From positions 1 through 6,656 of the forward strand of contig CAKTFI010000057.1 in assembly GCA_934555865.1 (NCBI GenBank): a stretch of 6,656 nucleotides of DNA. Reading direction: 5' to 3'. Made by a program: the position numbers and the translations under genes. This stretch comes from an uncultured Christensenellaceae bacterium (GTDB lineage Bacteria; Bacillota; Clostridia; Christensenellales; Christensenellaceae). Below, one piece after another: positions 1 to 6,656 of the stretch. The notes beneath the pieces are model-generated. The model was not told the DNA's origin, ran no database searches, and was given only the letters and a program-made list of their open reading frames with translations. How positions within the stretch are numbered: position 1 is the first letter of the stretch; each line of letters begins with the position of its first letter.

Positions 1-1185
1 ACCGCGTCAGGAAACGCGACGGAGGGCAACCTGCTGGACAGCATCTCGTTCGGCGCGAATGTGCCCTGGCGGATCGAGTATTACCTAAACGGGCAGCTTC
101 AGCAAGGGCTGACCGAGTCGGGCAGCGCGCGGCTGGGCAGCCATATTTCCGCCTCGCATACCGCGGATTCCCTCTTGCAGGGCGCGGTTTTCACCGGGTC
201 GACGATCGGCTCGACGCTGGTCGACGGGGAAGGCGGCGTGAAGGAATATAACGGGACGCAGATCTACATCCATCGCCGCAAGGAGGATGGCGAGCTGGTC
301 AATGTCCTGCGGCTATATTATGTGAGCTCTTCGGTCATCACCGTGGAAAAGACGGTGCTTGTGCGCGAGTGGGACACGCTCATCGCCGAGGAAAAATCCG
401 AAGTGCTCGCCAGCCTCGCGGACGGGTCGTATGACGCGGCGTTTTCGCTCTATCGGGCGGGGACGGAGGCGGCGACGGCGCAGATCTCCGTCGGGGCGGA
501 GGAACTGCGCGGCGCACTGGACGCTGGGCGCGGGCGCGCGGTGTTTTCTGCCGTGTTTCGCGACGCGGACGGCAGCGCCTACTATCCGGCGCTGGACTAT
601 TGGACCGCACAAGTGGCCTTGCAGGCGGAGGAAGAAGCCTGCGACAGCCTGGCGGGCTATGCGATGCAGACCGAACGCACTTCGGAGGAGACGATCACCG
701 TCTCACGGCAGGACAGCAGCGCTAAACAGGCGGCATTTTCCAATATCTATACGCCACAGACCGTGCGCGTCCGCATCACCAAGCAGGTGGTCGGCCGCAG
801 GACGGAGGAGGCGTTCTCCTTCCGGGCGGCGTATTGGGCGGAGGGAGAAAAGGTGGAGGTCCCCGCCTTTGCCCTCAGAGACGGCGAGAGCTTTTCGCTG
901 CGCGTACCCGCGGGGGCAGAGGTGCTGGTGGAGGAGACGCGGGCGGATGGGTATACCATTCTGATCCGCGAGGGCGGCGTGACCAAGACCAATGGCGACA
1001 GCTATCGCTTTACGGCGAGGGGCAACACCGAGATCACCGTGCAGAACATCGCGGGAGCGATCCTGCCGGCGACGGGAGGATGGGCCGAAAGGCTTGGAAT
1101 GCTCGGCCTTTTCTGCTGCGGCACCGCGGCGGTGGGCGGCCTGTTCGTCCTTAAAAAACGGCGGTGTAGCCGCTTTATGAAGTAG
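1..1185 (+). CDS. LPATGG-anchored surface protein, probable pilus tip/ancillary adhesin (C-terminal part)
   Basis: The frame is open from base 1, so the start lies upstream; 394 residues are visible. It ends in a complete cell-wall sorting signal: LPATGG (residues 355-360), a hydrophobic stretch of about 20 residues, then a basic tail (KKRR). This signal is cleaved by a sortase between T and G and joined to another pilin or to peptidoglycan. Upstream are beta-rich modules of adhesin type. Residues about 20-110 have the pattern of repeats ending in a 'YYVSS' strand. Residues about 113-252 resemble a Cna-B-like domain (VEKTV with K117, SNIY with N248 as possible isopeptide partners). Residues about 255-350 form a last domain (ITKQV with K261, VEE at about 310-312, VQN with N349). 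The isopeptide assignments are inference. Lying first before shaft pilin and sortase, it is best read as the tip or ancillary subunit. The binding head and signal peptide are outside the window, so no ligand can be named. Confidence 0.88.
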   Translation, partial: TASGNATEGNLLDSISFGANVPWRIEYYLNGQLQQGLTESGSARLGSHISASHTADSLLQGAVFTGSTIGSTLVDGEGGVKEYNGTQIYIHRRKEDGELVNVLRLYYVSSSVITVEKTVLVREWDTLIAEEKSEVLASLADGSYDAAFSLYRAGTEAATAQISVGAEELRGALDAGRGRAVFSAVFRDADGSAYYPALDYWTAQVALQAEEEACDSLAGYAMQTERTSEETITVSRQDSSAKQAAFSNIYTPQTVRVRITKQVVGRRTEEAFSFRAAYWAEGEKVEVPAFALRDGESFSLRVPAGAEVLVEETRADGYTILIREGGVTKTNGDSYRFTARGNTEITVQNIAGAILPATGGWAERLGMLGLFCCGTAAVGGLFVLKKRRCSRFMK

Positions 1186-1219: not shown

Positions 1220-1226
1220 AAGGTGG
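1220..1226 (+). promoter_or_regulatory. Ribosome binding site deciding the shaft pilin start
   Basis: AAGGTGG lies five bases before the ATG at 1232. An in-frame GTG at 1223 falls inside this site, so the ATG at 1232 is the start. That start gives a clean signal peptide (MKHTKR, then a hydrophobic run). Confidence 0.75.
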
Positions 1227-1231
1227 AAACA

Positions 1232-2833
1232 ATGAAACACACAAAGAGAATCGTGGCGTGCCTGCTGGCGCTGTTGGTGCTGGCGATGAGCGCGCCGGTA
1301 ATGGCTGCGGAAAATACCGGCAGCATTACCGTGGAAAACGCAACGCCCGGCAAGACCTATACGCTGTATAAGCTCTTTGACGCGACCTATGGCGAGGGAA
1401 CGGCGGCGTATTACCTGAAGGCGGACAGCGAGTGGTATGCGCTGGTCGCGGCGGCGACCGACCTGTTCAAGCTGGAAACGCTGGCGGGACAGCCGGATAC
1501 CTACCTGGTCACCAAGCAGGGCGACGACAACAAGATCATCGAATGGTTCCATTCGACCGAGGTGCGCGAAGCGGTGGCGGGCTTTACGGCGGTGGCGGAA
1601 AAGACGGCCGCAGCAGCCGACGGCAAGGTTTCGACGCTCAAATTTGAGGATCTCCCCTATGGCTATTACTTTGTGACGAGCACGCTCGGCGCGGTCGTCT
1701 CTGTCACGAATGCCAACGCGGATGTCGAGATCATCGACAAGAACCAGCAGCCCGGATGGGGCGGCGAAGGCGGCAAGTTCATCAAGAACGAAGCGGGCAA
1801 ATGGGTCGCGAGTAACACGCAGGCGATCGGCGGTACTAACGAATACAAGGTGACGGTCAAGGAAGCCCTCAACTATGCCGGTGCGCAGAAGGTGCAGCAG
1901 TACATCCTCCGCGACCAGCACGGCAGTGCGATCCGCCCCGACTTTTCCACGGTCAAGGTGAAGATCAACGGCGTCGAAGTGAAGGGCGGCTGGATCACCA
2001 GCGACTCGGAGCACGCGAATGAAAGTGACCGCACGGTCGATCCGGACGAAGCGGGCACGGTGAATTTCGACAACTGCAACTGGTACATCCTGGATTCGAC
2101 GGACAATGACGGCCTGTTCCTCATCTACATCAAGTGGCAGGATGAAGACAGCAACTTCCGCTATGAAGCGCCGGCGGACATCGAAGTGACCTATCAGGCA
2201 ACGCTGCTTTCGAACGCTAGCATCGGCGAAGAGGCGGTAAACAACTACAACACGGCGGTCGCGGAATGGAAGACCGCGGACGGCACCTTCAGCGACACGG
2301 CAAAGACGGTCACGACCTATACCTATGCTCTGGCGTTGTATAAGACGGATTCCAAGACGAACGCTCCGCTGGCCGGCGCGATCTTCAAGCTGATCGACAA
2401 GAAGACGGGCGCGACCGTTTCACTGTACCGCACCAAGAGCGATTCCTCGGTCTATTACCTCCAGTCGGAGGAAACGGCGGCGATGGCGGACCGCGAGGAA
2501 GACCCGGTCACGGAATTCACGACGCCTGCCGACGGCGTGGTCCTCATCAAGGGACTGCAGGGCGGCGAGTATCAGCTGGTCGAGACGCAGGCCCCCGGCG
2601 GGTATAACCTGCTGCGGCAACCGGTGGATGTCACGCTGAGCAAGGAAAATTCCACGAACTATCAAAAGCGCGTGAACTGCGTACAGGAAGATATCAAGAA
2701 CTCCTCGGGCACCGAGCTCCCGGCGACGGGCGGCAAGGGCACGACGCTGTTCATTTCCCTGGGGGCGCTGGCCGTGCTGGGCGCGGGGCTGTTCCTGGTG
2801 GTCAATAAGCGGATGAGCAAGGAAGCTCTGTAA
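1232..2833 (+). CDS. Major (shaft) pilin, SpaH/EbpB-like, isopeptide-forming, LPATGG-anchored
   Basis: This 533-residue precursor is the repeated unit of a covalent Gram-positive pilus. It has a signal peptide (residues 1 to about 26, MKHTKR start, cleavage near VMA-A). An N-terminal domain of about 30-170 contains the 'LPYGYYFV' strand typical of SpaH/EbpB-type pilins. A second, D2-type domain spans about 180-360 (YKVTVK, YILRD, NTAV). A C-terminal Cna-B-like domain spans about 365-495, with K371 (LALYK), an E-box (ETQAPGGY, E451) and N490 (IKN) as the expected isopeptide triad. LPATGG (496-501) is followed by a membrane segment and a short basic tail. The lysine that receives the next subunit is probably K170 in 'EIIDKN', at the end of the first domain where other pilins have VYPK; that choice is inference. 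It sits between the probable adhesin and the class C sortase, the usual order in pilus islands. A GC palindrome just downstream may cap its transcript. Confidence 0.95.
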   Translation: MKHTKRIVACLLALLVLAMSAPVMAAENTGSITVENATPGKTYTLYKLFDATYGEGTAAYYLKADSEWYALVAAATDLFKLETLAGQPDTYLVTKQGDDNKIIEWFHSTEVREAVAGFTAVAEKTAAAADGKVSTLKFEDLPYGYYFVTSTLGAVVSVTNANADVEIIDKNQQPGWGGEGGKFIKNEAGKWVASNTQAIGGTNEYKVTVKEALNYAGAQKVQQYILRDQHGSAIRPDFSTVKVKINGVEVKGGWITSDSEHANESDRTVDPDEAGTVNFDNCNWYILDSTDNDGLFLIYIKWQDEDSNFRYEAPADIEVTYQATLLSNASIGEEAVNNYNTAVAEWKTADGTFSDTAKTVTTYTYALALYKTDSKTNAPLAGAIFKLIDKKTGATVSLYRTKSDSSVYYLQSEETAAMADREEDPVTEFTTPADGVVLIKGLQGGEYQLVETQAPGGYNLLRQPVDVTLSKENSTNYQKRVNCVQEDIKNSSGTELPATGGKGTTLFISLGALAVLGAGLFLVVNKRMSKEAL

Positions 2834-2892: not shown

Positions 2893-3750
2893 ATGAGGAA
2901 ACGAAAACGCATCACAACCTGGCTGCTGGGCATCTTCTTCGTGGGTTTGTCTGCGCTGTTATACCCGGCGGTCAGCTCCTATTGGAATTCCAAAACGCAG
3001 TCCAAGGCGGTGATGAACTACACAGAGCGCTTGCAGACCATGGATGCGGCGGAGACGGACGCCATGTTTGCCGCGGCGGAGCAGTATAACCGGACGCTGG
3101 CGGCGCTTGACTTTCCGCTCGCGGAATATACGCGGGTGGAGGGCTATGAGGGGGCGGTGAATGTCGATGGGCAGGGCATGATCGGCTACCTTTCGGTCGA
3201 TCGCCTGCACATCAAGCTGCCGATCTATCACGGCACTTCGGAGGGCGTGCTGGGCGCGGCCTGCGGGCATCTGGAGGGCAGCAGCCTGCCGGTCGGCGGC
3301 GCGGGGAGGCACGCGGTGCTGTCGGCGCATCGCGGACTGCCCTCGGCGCGGCTGTTCACCGACCTGGATAAGCTGAAGGTGGGCGACCGCTTCCGCATCG
3401 TCGTGCTGGACCGGACGCTCACCTATGAGGTCGATCAGATCCGCATCGTCCTGCCGACGGATACCAACGACATCCAGATCGAAGAGGGCGAGGACTACTG
3501 CACGCTGCTCACCTGCACGCCGTATGGCATCAATACGCACCGCCTGCTGGTGCGCGGTAGGCGGGTGGAAGGGGCGGACACGCCGCGCGTCGAGGTGCAG
3601 AGCGAAGCGTATCTCATCGACCGGTTGATCGTGATGCCGGCGGTGGCGCTGCCGATCCTGCTGGCGCTCATCCTGTATGTCTGCCTGACGCCGCCCAAGC
3701 GAAAACCCAAGTTGCCGGAAATGGAGGAAGAAACGGATGAAACGGAATAA
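2893..3750 (+). CDS. srtC: Class C (pilin-polymerising) sortase
   Basis: This 285-residue membrane enzyme cuts the LPXTG signal of pilin subunits and joins the threonine to a lysine of the next subunit, building the pilus on the outer face of the membrane. The class C layout is clear. There is an N-terminal membrane segment (residues 7-27) and a 'YNRTL' helix region (65-69). The core then follows: 'GMIGYL', 'LPIYHGTSEGVL' and 'GHLEGSSLPVGG', with the catalytic His in 'SAHRG' (H146), Cys in 'TLLTCTPYG' (C208) and Arg in 'NTHRLLVRG' (R217). A second membrane segment (about 244-265) and a charged tail follow, also typical of class C. The lid region before the core lacks the usual Asp-Pro-aromatic motif; 'LDFP' at 72-75 is the nearest match. 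The gene overlaps the next by 14 bases. Its likely substrates are the two LPATGG proteins just upstream. Confidence 0.95.
   Translation: MRKRKRITTWLLGIFFVGLSALLYPAVSSYWNSKTQSKAVMNYTERLQTMDAAETDAMFAAAEQYNRTLAALDFPLAEYTRVEGYEGAVNVDGQGMIGYLSVDRLHIKLPIYHGTSEGVLGAACGHLEGSSLPVGGAGRHAVLSAHRGLPSARLFTDLDKLKVGDRFRIVVLDRTLTYEVDQIRIVLPTDTNDIQIEEGEDYCTLLTCTPYGINTHRLLVRGRRVEGADTPRVEVQSEAYLIDRLIVMPAVALPILLALILYVCLTPPKRKPKLPEMEEETDETE
3723..3730 (+). promoter_or_regulatory. Ribosome binding site inside the sortase gene for the next pilin
   Basis: GGAGGAAG lies six bases before the ATG at 3737 and inside the last codons of the sortase gene. It supports this start and suggests coupled translation of the sortase and the small pilin. 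Confidence 0.65.
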
Positions 3751-4678
3751 GAAAGCGATCCTGTGCTGTGTATTGTTAGTGCTGGCCGCCTGTGTGCTGC
3801 CCATGCAGGCGCTTGCCGCTTCGACGGCGGACGCCAAGGAGACGGTGGACATTGCCCGGGCGTGCAGCTTGACGCTGACCTACCGGGCGGATGCGGGAGC
3901 CTTTGCCGGGCAGGAGGTCTCCCTGTACATGGTGGCGGCGCTCGACGAGGAGGCGCAATACCGTCTGGCAGAGCCCTTTTCATCCTACCCAATTTCGATC
4001 GAGACCCTGCCCGAGACGACGGATTGGCAGGCGCTCGCCGCGACGGTCGAGGCTTACGCCCTGGCAGATTCGGTCGCGCCGGTGCAGACGGCCCGGACGG
4101 ATGCGGACGGCAAGGTCTGCTTTTTCGGCCTGACGCCGGGGATATACCTGGCCTCCCGGGTGGAGGCCAAGCGGGAGGAGACGACCTATCGCTTCGCGGC
4201 CTTTCTGATCGCCGTCCCCGGGGTGAGCGCGGCGGGCAGCTGGGAATATGACCTTGCGGCCGCGCCAAAGTTTGAAAAGCAGGAGCCAGATTGGGAGACC
4301 GTGACTTATACCGTCGTCAAGACCTGGAAGGACGCCGGGCATGCGCAAAAGCGGCCGAAGAGCGTGACGATGGAGATCTACAAGGAAGGCGTCTTGCAGG
4401 AGACGCAGGTCCTGAACGCGCAGAACCAATGGAAGTATTCCTGGCAGACGCAGGAGGACGGCAAGCAGTGGACGGTGGTCGAGCGCGGCGTCGGCAGCGG
4501 GTATCAGGTGCGGATCTACCGGAATGGCTATGGATTTTCCGTTGTAAATACCTACCCGGGAGGGGGAAAGCCGCCCAAGACGGGCGAGGACGCGGCCTGC
4601 GTCCTCTGGGTCGGTGCGTTGCTGGCGATGACTGCGGCGGCGGGCGCCCTGCTGCGGCGCGGGATGCGGCATGCGTAA
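3737..4678 (+). CDS. Minor pilin with Cna-B domain and PPKTG sorting signal, probable basal (anchor) pilin
   Basis: This 313-residue secreted precursor has a signal peptide (1 to about 28, MKRNKK start, cleavage near ALA-A). An N-terminal beta-rich domain of about 38-165 includes 'DADGKVCFFGLTPGIYLAS', like the ascending strand of SpaA-type domains. A pilin-like motif 'WEYDLAAAPK' follows (169-178, K178). A Cna-B domain of about 188-273 comes next (VVKTWKD with K195, RPKSV, VVER with E249, VVNTY with N271), which should hold an internal Lys-Asn isopeptide bond. The end is a short linker, PPKTG (279-283), a membrane segment and basic residues. The sorting motif differs from the LPATG of the other two pilins, which suits a subunit handled by a housekeeping sortase. 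Size, position after the class C sortase and this motif suggest the basal pilin that ends polymerisation and anchors the fibre. A second ancillary subunit is the alternative. It overlaps both neighbours. Confidence 0.85.
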   Translation: MKRNKKAILCCVLLVLAACVLPMQALAASTADAKETVDIARACSLTLTYRADAGAFAGQEVSLYMVAALDEEAQYRLAEPFSSYPISIETLPETTDWQALAATVEAYALADSVAPVQTARTDADGKVCFFGLTPGIYLASRVEAKREETTYRFAAFLIAVPGVSAAGSWEYDLAAAPKFEKQEPDWETVTYTVVKTWKDAGHAQKRPKSVTMEIYKEGVLQETQVLNAQNQWKYSWQTQEDGKQWTVVERGVGSGYQVRIYRNGYGFSVVNTYPGGGKPPKTGEDAACVLWVGALLAMTAAAGALLRRGMRHA

Positions 4679-5255
4679 CTTCGGCCGGAGAGAGAGGCTT
4701 TTGCTGATCCTCTGCGGCGTTGTGTTCCTGGGTGCGGCGGGGATGCTCCTGCGCGGGGTGCTGCAGCGCGTGCAGGAAGAGCGGGTGCTCTCCAAAACGG
4801 CGGTAGAGGTCGCCCGGCAAATCCCAGACGGCAAAGAGGGGGCGGCCCTGCTCGTAGAGGAGCTGCCTCGGCTGGCATGGACGAACGGAGATATTGTGGG
4901 GCTGCTGGAGATTCCGGACGCGGGCGTCTGCCTGCCGGTATATGCCGAGGAGGCGGCGCGGACGCTGCCTACGCTGTCCCCAGCAGAGGGCGGCGGCGCG
5001 CGGATCACGGTGGCGGCAACCGCACGGCAGCTCGCCTGCCTGATCGAGGCCGAGGCGGGGCAGGCGGTCGTCTTTACAGACCTGCTGGGGAATCGATACA
5101 CCTATGCGGTGCAGAGCATCCGGCACCCGGCGGCGGCGCAGCTGTCGGGGCTTTCGGCGGCGGAGGGGGAATTGCTGCTCGCCGCGCGGAAGGGAGGCCG
5201 TGTGGTCATGGCCGTTTGCCGCAGGACAACGGAGGACTGTGACGGCCGTACATAG
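4671..5255 (+). CDS. Sortase-like membrane protein lacking catalytic His and Cys (possible pseudo-enzyme)
   Basis: This 194-residue protein has one N-terminal membrane segment (about 9-27), a helical linker and a beta-rich outer domain. Parts follow the order of a sortase barrel: 'GLLEIPDAGVCLPVYAE' (77-93, like the I-x-I-P...LPV strand), 'RITVAAT' (111-117, where sortases have the GH of the catalytic His), 'AVVFTDLLGNRYTYAVQSI' (132-150, like the D-x-x-G-x-x-Y-x-Y-x-V strands), 'ELLLAARKGGRVVMAVCRR' (167-185, where sortases have TLxTC and then the catalytic Arg). The His position is Ala/Thr and the Cys position is Ala; R177 may match the catalytic Arg. The only His (H152) and C183 are at other places in the fold. 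The frame is uninterrupted, so it looks maintained and not decaying. It overlaps the pilin gene by eight bases and has no clear ribosome binding site, so translation is probably coupled. Homology is judged by eye; an unrelated small membrane protein is possible. Confidence 0.6.
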   Translation: MRNFGRRERLLLILCGVVFLGAAGMLLRGVLQRVQEERVLSKTAVEVARQIPDGKEGAALLVEELPRLAWTNGDIVGLLEIPDAGVCLPVYAEEAARTLPTLSPAEGGGARITVAATARQLACLIEAEAGQAVVFTDLLGNRYTYAVQSIRHPAAAQLSGLSAAEGELLLAARKGGRVVMAVCRRTTEDCDGRT

Positions 5256-5370
5256 AGATGAAACGCCGAGACGATGGTTACAAAAAAGGAGCCTTACCAA
5301 GAGCTTGCTCAGTGGGGCGGCCCTTGGTAGCAATGTGGAGAAAGGAATGCAGCTTGTCCGGTTCTAAACA
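5256..5370. other. Non-coding stretch after the pilus operon, with a small branched hairpin
   Basis: TACCAAG (5295-5301) is complementary to CTTGGTA (5323-5329), with a possible U-G pair outside (5294/5330). Between them, GAGC TT GCTC can form a minor stem. No run of T follows, so this is not a convincing intrinsic terminator, although it is the only strong pairing near the 3' end of the pilus operon. An 18-codon frame at 5274-5330 has no ribosome binding site and is not called. The rest of the stretch shows nothing I recognise. Confidence 0.35.
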
Positions 5371-5436
5371 ATGTGTAAAAGGTATGTGACATTGTGATTC
5401 TAAATATTACAATTGTGTAATATGAATGTTACACAA
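5371..5436. promoter_or_regulatory. Cluster of GTGTAA/TTACAC boxes, possible regulator binding region
   Basis: TTGTGTAA (5413-5420) and its exact inverse TTACACAA (5429-5436) are separated by eight bases. The overlapping sequence ATATTACAATTGTGTAATAT (5404-5423) is itself an inverted repeat with eight-base arms and a four-base centre. Another ATGTGTAA is at 5371-5378, and TGTGA occurs twice (5385-5389, 5393-5397). The cluster lies about 65-130 bases before the -35 box of the binding-protein promoter, a place suited to an activator. No regulator family can be named from the sequence. Confidence 0.4.
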
Positions 5437-5500
5437 ACTAAATATATGCGTAATTTTTGTGGAAATCAGTGGGATAATGGCAGAAATCATAAAAAATGAG

Positions 5501-5529
5501 TTGCATTTCTAAAAATAAAGTTGTATTAT
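5501..5529 (+). promoter_or_regulatory. Sigma-A-type promoter of the solute-binding lipoprotein gene
   Basis: A -35 box TTGCAT (5501-5506) and a -10 box TATTAT (5524-5529) are separated by exactly 17 bases, in an A+T-rich setting. Transcription should begin near 5536, giving a leader of about 50 bases before the ATG at 5585. The promoter makes the lipoprotein gene independent of the pilus operon. Confidence 0.7.
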
Positions 5530-5544
5530 AGGAATGTCCTCAGA

Positions 5545-5560
5545 TGGCAAGTAATTGCCA
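5545..5560 (+). promoter_or_regulatory. Short perfect inverted repeat in the leader (operator or 5' mRNA hairpin)
   Basis: TGGCAA and TTGCCA flank GTAA. As RNA this is a six-base-pair stem closed by a GUAA loop, which fits the GNRA tetraloop rule. As DNA it is a palindrome about ten bases after the predicted transcription start, where a repressor could block initiation or elongation. It ends ten bases before the ribosome binding site, so it would not hide it. Confidence 0.45.
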
Positions 5561-5569
5561 AAACAACAC

Positions 5570-5575
5570 AAGGAG
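5570..5575 (+). promoter_or_regulatory. Ribosome binding site of the solute-binding lipoprotein gene
   Basis: AAGGAG lies nine bases before the ATG at 5585 in a purine-rich stretch. It fixes the start and suggests strong translation. Confidence 0.8.
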
Positions 5576-5584
5576 AAAAGAAGA

Positions 5585-6656
5585 ATGAAAAAAGTTTTAG
5601 CACTCGTTCTTGCGCTGGCTATGGTCATGATGATGTTCGTAGCTTGCAAGAAGCAGGAAGAAAAAAAGTCTTCCGGCGTGACAGAACCCTCCAAGAGCAA
5701 TGTCGCTGAACCGGCAAAGTCCTACGCGATGGGTTATGAGAAGTACAATTTGGCTTGCCTGTATTCCGAAGTAACGGGCGACTTCTGGTCGATCGTTTTC
5801 AACGGTTGCACGGCGGCTTTGGAAGAGCTTAAGGCGGGTTCCGGCGTTGATGGTTATTGCATCGCTCCGGCAACGGCTTCCGACTATACGCAGCAGATGG
5901 ACCTGATCGACACGGCTGTTAACAAGGGCGCTGACGGTATCGTTCTCTGCCCGTCCAACGCGGACTCCATCGGCACCTATGTTACCGATAAGTTCAAGGA
6001 TGACAAGACGCCGATCATCGTTATCGACCGCTCCCTGAACACCACTTCTCCGGCAGTTGTCGCGACCTATGCGTCCGACGCATATGCAATGGCAGAAGCG
6101 CAGGCTCAGATGATGCACGAAATGTACGGTGACGAAGAAGTTACCTACATCTCCATGGGTCTCTCCCCGGAAAACAAGAACTGGGCGGATCGTTCCTATG
6201 GATGCATCGAGTATGCGAAGAAGAACTACCCGAACTTCACGAGCTACACTGGCGATCACCCCTACTGGGTAGGTCAGGTCACGCAGGACATCGCAATTCA
6301 GTATGTTCAGGACACGGTGAACTCGAACAGAAATAAGACGCTGTGCTTCCTCGGCACCTGCAACTCTTACAACAACTACATCATCGCAGCTCTGAGCGAG
6401 CTTGGCGAAGCTGGCACCAAGGTTGGCGTAATTGGTTGGGACTTCTCCGAGACGGAAAAGTCGAACATTGAATCCGGCGTTATGTTCGGTTCCATGGGCC
6501 AGAACCCGTATCTGATGGGCTATGATTCCACTTACATGATGTGCGATTATTTGTCTGGCAAGAAGATTGAAAAGAACGCGACCGTTCCTTTCCAGGCTGT
6601 CACCAAGAACAACATCAATACCGAAGAAGTTCAGAACTATCTGAAGACGATGAACC
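5585..6656 (+). CDS. Sugar-type ABC transporter substrate-binding lipoprotein, RbsB-like (3' end outside window)
   Basis: 357 residues are visible and the frame is open at the right edge; family length suggests little is missing. It starts with a lipoprotein signal peptide (MKKVLALVLALAMVMMM) and the lipobox FVAC with C21, then a charged, Ser-rich linker to about 45. Mature protein would be lipid-anchored on the outer face of the membrane and pass a bound solute to an ABC permease. The type 1 periplasmic-binding fold is recognisable: 'GDFWSIVFNGC' (65-75), 'DLIDTAVNKGADGIVLCPSNADSI' with the DGIVLCPSNAD core (117-127), 'TPIIVIDRSLN' (142-152), 'ASDAYAMAEAQAQMM' (163-177), 'VGVIGWDFSE' (280-289) and 'GQNPYLMGYDS' (305-315). 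These match the order in ribose and galactose binding proteins. The ligand cannot be read from the sequence, and a sugar is assumed from the family. Permease and ATPase genes should follow downstream. Codon use is more mixed (GTT, TCC, GGT) than in the pilus genes, as in highly expressed genes. Confidence 0.9.
   Translation, partial: MKKVLALVLALAMVMMMFVACKKQEEKKSSGVTEPSKSNVAEPAKSYAMGYEKYNLACLYSEVTGDFWSIVFNGCTAALEELKAGSGVDGYCIAPATASDYTQQMDLIDTAVNKGADGIVLCPSNADSIGTYVTDKFKDDKTPIIVIDRSLNTTSPAVVATYASDAYAMAEAQAQMMHEMYGDEEVTYISMGLSPENKNWADRSYGCIEYAKKNYPNFTSYTGDHPYWVGQVTQDIAIQYVQDTVNSNRNKTLCFLGTCNSYNNYIIAALSELGEAGTKVGVIGWDFSETEKSNIESGVMFGSMGQNPYLMGYDSTYMMCDYLSGKKIEKNATVPFQAVTKNNINTEEVQNYLKTMN

Follow-up and report, generated by a model that had tools for sequence, protein, structure and literature searches.

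A clade of predicted pseudosortases encoded beside presumed basal pilins in class C sortase pilus operons

Introduction

A central question of sortase-built pili concerns recognition of the basal subunit and the switch from polymerisation to wall anchoring. A pilus operon from an uncultured Christensenellaceae bacterium (contig CAKTFI010000057.1, assembly GCA_934555865.1) raises this question through the gene behind its presumed basal pilin, whose product is predicted to fold as a sortase and carries none of the catalytic residues. What might such a protein do in pilus assembly? In a family that keeps the sortase fold, drops catalysis and accompanies a particular type of basal pilin, binding would be uncoupled from cutting, and a helper role would add a second retired enzyme to pilus assembly after SipA, the nearest functional precedent known to us. 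As described in PMC4049620, SipA is a signal peptidase homologue without catalytic residues on which S. pyogenes depends for the polymerisation of its pili, and the authors of that study proposed binding of a key component on the cell surface as its role. Among the open-licence papers in PMC, a collection outside which most subscription papers lie, titles, abstract openings and term counts pointed to no paper on a sortase homologue naturally devoid of catalytic residues; the expression 'degenerate sortase', as used in PMC8615915, refers to the cleavage motif. Below, the window denotes the whole stretch of 6,656 nucleotides that was analysed.

Results

The pseudosortase gene and its operon

The pilus genes of the window all lie on the + strand. 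First comes an upstream pilin or adhesin that is present as its C-terminal part only (1..1185), with an LPATGG signal and a frame entering from the window edge. It is followed by the major pilin (1223..2833), likewise with an LPATGG signal and matching Gram_pos_anchor and NF033902 (99.6 bits, cut-off 95), and by a class C sortase in which the catalytic residues are kept (2893..3750; NF033745, 256 bits, cut-off 160). The next gene (3737..4678) encodes a pilin with a Cna_B domain (Pfam Cna_B, 44 bits) and a PPKTGE sorting motif (4571..4588); from its position and from general background on pilus operons we take it to be the basal pilin, and it is the presumed partner of the pseudosortase. The pseudosortase gene itself (4671..5255) stands directly after this pilin gene, downstream of the class C sortase, and its start shares 8 nt with the pilin stop region. 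It begins with ATG and encodes 194 amino acids with zero internal stops, bearing out the initial annotation of a clean frame that overlaps the basal pilin gene. The same annotation had the gene closing the pilus operon, which is plausible, although a simple scan of the + strand from 5255 to 5584 gave no terminator-like site.

The predicted product combines an N-terminal membrane helix with an outer domain of predicted sortase fold that lacks the catalytic His, Cys and Arg. Hydrophobicity places a single transmembrane stretch at approximately residues 10-28 (4698..4754, limits set by eye), and in the structure model this stretch is held by a long N-terminal helix of residues 6-50. At the end of the pilus genes the G+C content drops from about 0.65 to about 0.5; positions 5585-6656, beginning after an AT-rich gap, hold a sugar-type periplasmic binding protein (Peripla_BP_4, 127.9 bits). 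No Rfam family was found for the window.

Sortase homology and predicted fold

The assignment to the sortases had originally been judged by eye. Public sortase models match the window protein only faintly: Pfam Sortase (PF04203) gives 14.7 bits (E 0.026) against a gathering cut-off of 26.6, and the NCBIfam class B, C and D models give E-values of 0.1-0.2, with 11.3 bits for the class C model NF033745 (cut-off 160) and 11.6 bits for the class B model TIGR03064 (cut-off 153.75). The homology becomes clear with profiles of genes in the same position. PF04203 matches 23 of the 25 members of alignment A3, which comprises the window protein, its relative P0001 and the proteins of 23 further loci, at E 0.1 or better, and a same-position profile built without the window protein scores it at 60.7 bits (E 2e-17). 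With separate profiles of relatives that have lost the catalytic residues (dead) and relatives that keep them (live), both again built without it, the window protein reaches 66.1 bits on the dead profile versus 29.3 on the live one. With none of the three profiles did 500 shuffled sequences exceed a top score of 4.8 bits, and we reject a chance frame on this comparison.

A structure model of the window protein (pLDDT 78.9, pTM 0.71; an earlier three-sequence model was poor, pLDDT 57) shows a predicted sortase beta-barrel, and sortases made up all 50 among the matches listed in each of two fold searches, so the fold check upholds the assignment. The PDB sequence nearest to a joint dead and live profile is the Ebp class C sortase 24rr_A (E 1.3e-13); for the single window protein no PDB match was convincing (best E 1.2). 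Class C sortases share the predicted fold of the pseudosortase but possess the catalytic triad. Searches with the single protein found no relatives in genome and viral collections, and two, P0001 and P0002, among the matches listed from 5.8 billion proteins. None of the collections that we searched identifies the clade as pseudosortases. Taken at the level of profiles and predicted structure, the window protein is confirmed as a sortase homologue without catalytic residues.

Residues at the catalytic positions

In a 66-row family alignment, the columns of the catalytic His, Cys and Arg are occupied in the window protein by T117 (5019..5021), R173 (5187..5189) and V178 (5202..5204), so that the absence of the catalytic His and of the TLxTC Cys, as first noticed, holds and extends to the Arg; the loop around T117 is placed differently in A3, which makes the His column uncertain. 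The replacements are shared well beyond the window. Across the 24 dead rows (the window and 23 loci), 23 carry a basic residue, Lys or Arg, at the Cys column and the remaining one Gln; at the Arg column the window has Val and the other 23 have Tyr or Phe; the His column is variable and never His. All 25 rows of A3 agree at T136, D137 and G140.

These columns bear on whether the protein may still be an enzyme that has recruited new residues: the Lys/Arg and Tyr now standing at the old site, or H152 together with C183 in the window. We regard this reading as very improbable. It would explain the conservation of the replacing residues in A3 (Lys/Arg in 24 of 25 rows and Gln in one at the Cys column, Tyr/Phe in 23 of 25 at the Arg column). 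There is, however, no nucleophile in common, because the old Cys column varies between Lys, Arg and Gln, and no conserved His column exists in the 25 rows: H152, the window protein's sole His, lies in the best of them, which is His in 7. C183 does lie in the fullest Cys column (21 of 25 rows, the next best reaching 13), but this is a last-strand Cys that most live rows also carry beside their TLxTC Cys, and it is not the TLxTC Cys. H152 and C183 as a working pair, named at the outset as what might overturn the reading as dead, are accordingly discarded on A3 column conservation. The same goes for R177, initially put forward as a possible remnant of the triad: it adjoins the Arg column and is Arg in just 2 of 25 rows, the other being the near-identical P0001. 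With Val rather than Tyr or Phe at the old Arg column, a feature shared only with P0001 against the other 23 rows, the window protein is, as far as its alignment tells, an outlying member of the clade.

A clade without the catalytic triad

The extent of the loss was followed in 80 pilus loci fetched via a class C sortase alignment with 28 homologues, being the best 80 of at least 584 confirmed stretches. A family profile built from nine same-position genes picked out 66 family rows, which come from the window and from 64 of the 80 loci; 65 of them score above 60 bits, the incomplete L041 45.6, and class C sortases stay below 50. His-Cys-Arg is complete in 40 rows and wholly replaced in 24, those of the window and 23 loci; the remaining two are cut short. 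No intermediate with part of the triad lost occurs among the 66. Loss restricted to this window is thereby rejected, and to the question raised at the start, whether His and Cys are missing only here, the same-position genes answer that they are missing throughout a whole clade. In a tree of 62 rows, which omits L041 and L043 (ending before all catalytic residues are readable) as well as L054 and L070 (near copies of L065), one branch parts the 24 dead from the 38 live rows with support 100/99. The tree is unrooted and shows one change without giving its direction; from the wider sortase family we infer that catalysis was lost rather than gained.

A protein search with the A3 profile returned 41 proteins including P0001 and P0002, and of the other 39, 38 are dead and one (P0161) is live; this shows breadth and not a ratio, because the query favours dead relatives and some matches repeat known loci (P0126 is probably L019). 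One dead clade member with all three catalytic residues replaced, P0160, is publicly named 'sortase A'. Genome surveys matched A3 in 4/13, 4/21, 44/200, 58/250, 58/250, 22/61 and 31/61 genomes, where the 13- and 21-genome samples, family- and order-level surveys around genome G016, overlap and the two 250-genome samples are the same but for their centre. Loci were taken from the best 20-30 matches per survey. A first kinship survey (L081-L115) gave 34 classified rows, 28 live, five dead (including the already known L024 and L001) and one mixed, and a second (L116-L182) gave 62, 57 live and five dead, of which L147 is the sole new one. The live gene is thus far commoner than the dead one among classified survey rows, and divergent dead copies like that of the window could have escaped the surveys. 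The mixed row, L090, is a third-gene sortase in which Tyr takes the place of the His but Cys and Arg are intact; it stands apart from the dead clade and represents either a single-residue loss or a sequence error.

Codon comparisons suggest that the dead gene is under constraint. Of 19 dead pairs above 45% identity, four were saturated and 15 gave omega values of 0.09-0.30; for the pairs with dS below 1 the values are 0.23 (L005/L067) and 0.29 (L028/L189). Four live pairs above 90% identity gave 0.06-0.19, and other live pairs ranged up to 0.70. With omega well below 1 in dead pairs, the dead protein seems to be maintained in the clade, and the pseudosortase is, by the measure of these alignments, trees and rates, real and clade-wide.

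The window's own copy requires separate consideration. By profile and tree it falls with the dead members, but with an end branch of 4.07, by far the longest in a tree whose median is 0.63, and its place inside the dead clade is unsure because of this branch. It also lacks the clade-conserved Gly105, Phe171 and Tyr178. In this lineage the gene might therefore be an eroding relic that no longer matters, with the clade protein at work elsewhere, a reading we hold to be unlikely but worth weighing. The relative P0002, a cluster of 100 member sequences, could be taken in the same sense: it is 113 aa long, 64% identical over 60% of the query and without the membrane part, and around 5006-5045 part of it corresponds to the window's third reading frame, so that gene decay in a sister lineage is possible. 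Against erosion of the window gene itself, its frame is intact and its start overlap kept, P0001 is full length and 96% identical, with 7 differences in 194, the dead-clade profile still recognises the protein (66 bits), and it is predicted to fold as a sortase. We retain some doubt that the window's divergent copy still works.

Pairing with the basal pilin sorting signal

Dead genes adjoin the pilin gene before them, their starts overlapping it by 1-17 nt in 23 of 24 rows and following it after a 2 nt gap in one. They also go with a type of pilin. The residue after T-G (T-N in L013) of the basal pilin sorting signal is Asp or Glu in all 24 dead rows and in none of the 34 live rows whose signals were parsed (34 of 40, six not; L041 and L043 are omitted from the pairing counts). 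The window conforms to the resulting xPxT(G/N)[D/E] pattern with PPKTGE, and its pilin scores 321.6 bits with a profile of dead-locus basal pilins versus 216.5 with a live-locus profile (L022 and L046 left out of these profiles). The first residue of the dead motif, entered by hand for counting, is Pro in 11 rows, Ala and Thr in 4 each, Val in 2, and Asp, His and Gln in one each. Live rows have Gln, Met, Val or Arg after T-G, with a Pro of the WP kind downstream in 31 of 34. In one of them, L053, the parser picked an upstream T-G, the actual signal being LPQTGQ.

The association of signal with dead or live state has a Fisher p of 8e-17, a value that ignores kinship. On the class C sortase tree, for which all signal letters were entered by hand, including the unparsed but visible ones of L034 and L071, there are three state changes, two of them on well supported branches and both of these agreeing with the signal; a sign test on independent state changes gives p 0.5, the changes being too few for a test. 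Newly found loci were drawn from survey signal lists, a noisy regular-expression output used for named new dead loci and exceptions only. The further dead loci L086-L088 and L147 have Asp or Glu in four out of four, and the lists also contain a live locus with APQTGG (L149). An exception is the live operon of G012, with IPQTGE (L185). In two genomes, G015 and G004, a live operon with LPQTGQ coexists with a dead one whose signal is PPQTGD or QPQTGD; the live copy of G005 starts at a contig edge and its pilin is missing. L079 has a KTGD-type signal on its downstream gene though no family member is present, which implies that this type of signal does not depend on the dead protein. Overall, the signal comparisons offer good, if phylogenetically thin, evidence that the dead protein is paired with the basal pilin.

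Apparent exchange of the pilin and third gene beneath class C sortases

Locus alignments indicate where the two types of operon diverge. The dead locus L026 is 77% identical in DNA to the live locus L025 over the major pilin and class C sortase genes, and 84% identical to L041, which has a live-type signal and a cut third gene, over the major pilin end and class C gene; both alignments end at L026 position 10845, next to the end of the class C frame at 10852. Between loci of the same kind the likeness runs on: L026 and L039, both dead, align at 70% as far as 12422, through the basal pilin and dead gene, and L025 and L041 at 78% through the basal pilin to 10659, within the third gene. In the class C tree the sortases of these loci group together (100/100) despite the two kinds of third gene. 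Together, the alignment borders and this grouping suggest that basal pilin and third gene were exchanged jointly, as one unit.

The roles first suggested for the dead protein were holding pilins at the membrane, modulating the class C sortase and chaperoning the basal pilin. This result also addresses whether its target is the class C sortase, for which it would be a modulator or membrane scaffold, and not the basal pilin. Dead protein and class C sortase are encoded in the same operon and, by the general logic of pseudoenzymes, an active sortase could have an inactive homologue as its partner. Yet both the dead and the live pair of genes are found under class C sortases that are close relatives of each other, and the border of exchange is the end of the class C gene; we consider action on the class C sortase quite unlikely. 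Since the pair appears to have been swapped beneath closely related class C sortases, the evidence points to the basal pilin as the partner of the dead protein.

Among the 16 loci without a third gene, four of which end less than 2 kb past the class C gene, a TGQ-type basal pilin was seen in L047 alone. Four loci (L044, L048, L055 and L079) have a different gene set downstream of the class C sortase in place of basal pilin and third gene; in L048 and L055 this comprises a second sortase-like gene and then several proteins of unassigned role. In L014 the place is taken by an 836-aa LPSTGG protein (10987-13497).

Other sortases and wall anchoring

If the third gene is dead, anchoring must come from outside it; live third genes could be dedicated anchoring sortases. 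The division of labour has a parallel in Lactococcus lactis, where, according to PMC3516528, a class C sortase polymerises and the housekeeping sortase anchors via the basal pilin. A further sortase is encoded outside the operon in 22 of 23 dead genomes. Class B matches occur in 21 of these 23 (14 over the cut-off) and in 35 of 38 live-locus genomes (18 over the cut-off; 38 of 39 live loci covered, L065 left out), and we therefore reject class B presence as a mark of dead genomes.

In two of 23 dead loci the gene immediately behind the dead one is of class B type: L028 (12514-13278; TIGR03064, 190 bits, over the cut-off of 153.75) and L032 (12389-13177; 119.1 bits, under it). Of the 23, L026 and L004 have less than 800 nt remaining after the dead gene. 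No TLxTC gene directly follows the third gene in any of 40 live rows, three of which have less than 800 nt left, and in the examined stretch of L189, a near relative of L028, no class B-type gene comes after the dead gene. The numbers are too small for a claim about dead versus live loci. The genome of locus L023, G015, which has both dead and live versions of the pilin and third gene, contains 18 sortase-domain matches, several as neighbouring pairs.

Class B sortases recognise the kind of motif found on the window's basal pilin: according to PMC5118464, C. difficile SrtB recognises (S/P)PXTG, and PPKTG is a peptide studied as its substrate. That rule fits only 11 of the 24 dead motifs, since 11 begin with Pro and none with Ser. 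Class B sortases are active enzymes, and the window protein lies below the cut-off of their model.

Discussion

Placed beside the basal pilin, set off as a whole-triad difference on one branch and carrying its own replacing residues, the dead clade together with the SipA precedent (PMC4049620), leads us to favour a non-catalytic role in binding the basal pilin. We think it somewhat more likely than not that the window protein is a membrane-bound partner of the upstream presumed basal pilin, belonging to a conserved clade without the triad. The dead protein would bind its cognate basal pilin at the membrane, with the contact probably at or near the xPxTG[D/E] signal and without cutting, and the class C sortase would thereby be able to join the fibre to the bound basal pilin. 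Wall anchoring would then fall to another sortase, in the simplest case a class B enzyme encoded elsewhere or, as in the two loci above, right behind the dead gene.

A more specific version, to which we assign a low probability, would have the protein act as a clamp, in which Lys or Arg at the old Cys position clasps the acidic residue after TG, the base is kept at the membrane while the fibre grows and is handed over to a class B wall sortase once growth has ended, and pilin and clamp form an exchangeable 'base cassette'. The contact between Lys/Arg and the acidic residue is a guess prompted by their co-occurrence, and L004, with Gln at the Cys column and a TGD signal, does not fit it. The recognition step could be tested by comparing the two kinds of cassette, which are interchangeable beneath class C sortases of close kinship.

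As in SipA (PMC4049620), the pseudosortase is a homologue of a processing enzyme that has lost its catalytic residues and is encoded in a pilus operon. The likeness is one of function only. SipA has a signal peptidase fold and occurs with class B polymerising sortases, whereas the pseudosortase has a predicted sortase fold, in that the matches listed by the fold searches are sortases, and occurs with a class C sortase. The need for SipA was shown by experiment; that for the pseudosortase is proposed from sequence. Closest by tree are the live third-gene sortases, which likewise follow the basal pilin and have a similar length and a single membrane helix, but keep His-Cys-Arg and accompany basal pilins that mostly end in L-x-Q-T-G-Q..WP. 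This active counterpart itself looks to lie outside the named sortase classes. When four live third-gene members (L072, L064, L021 and L062) were scanned, none reached the cut-off of a named class, and two, L072 and L064, reached that of the general model TIGR01076.
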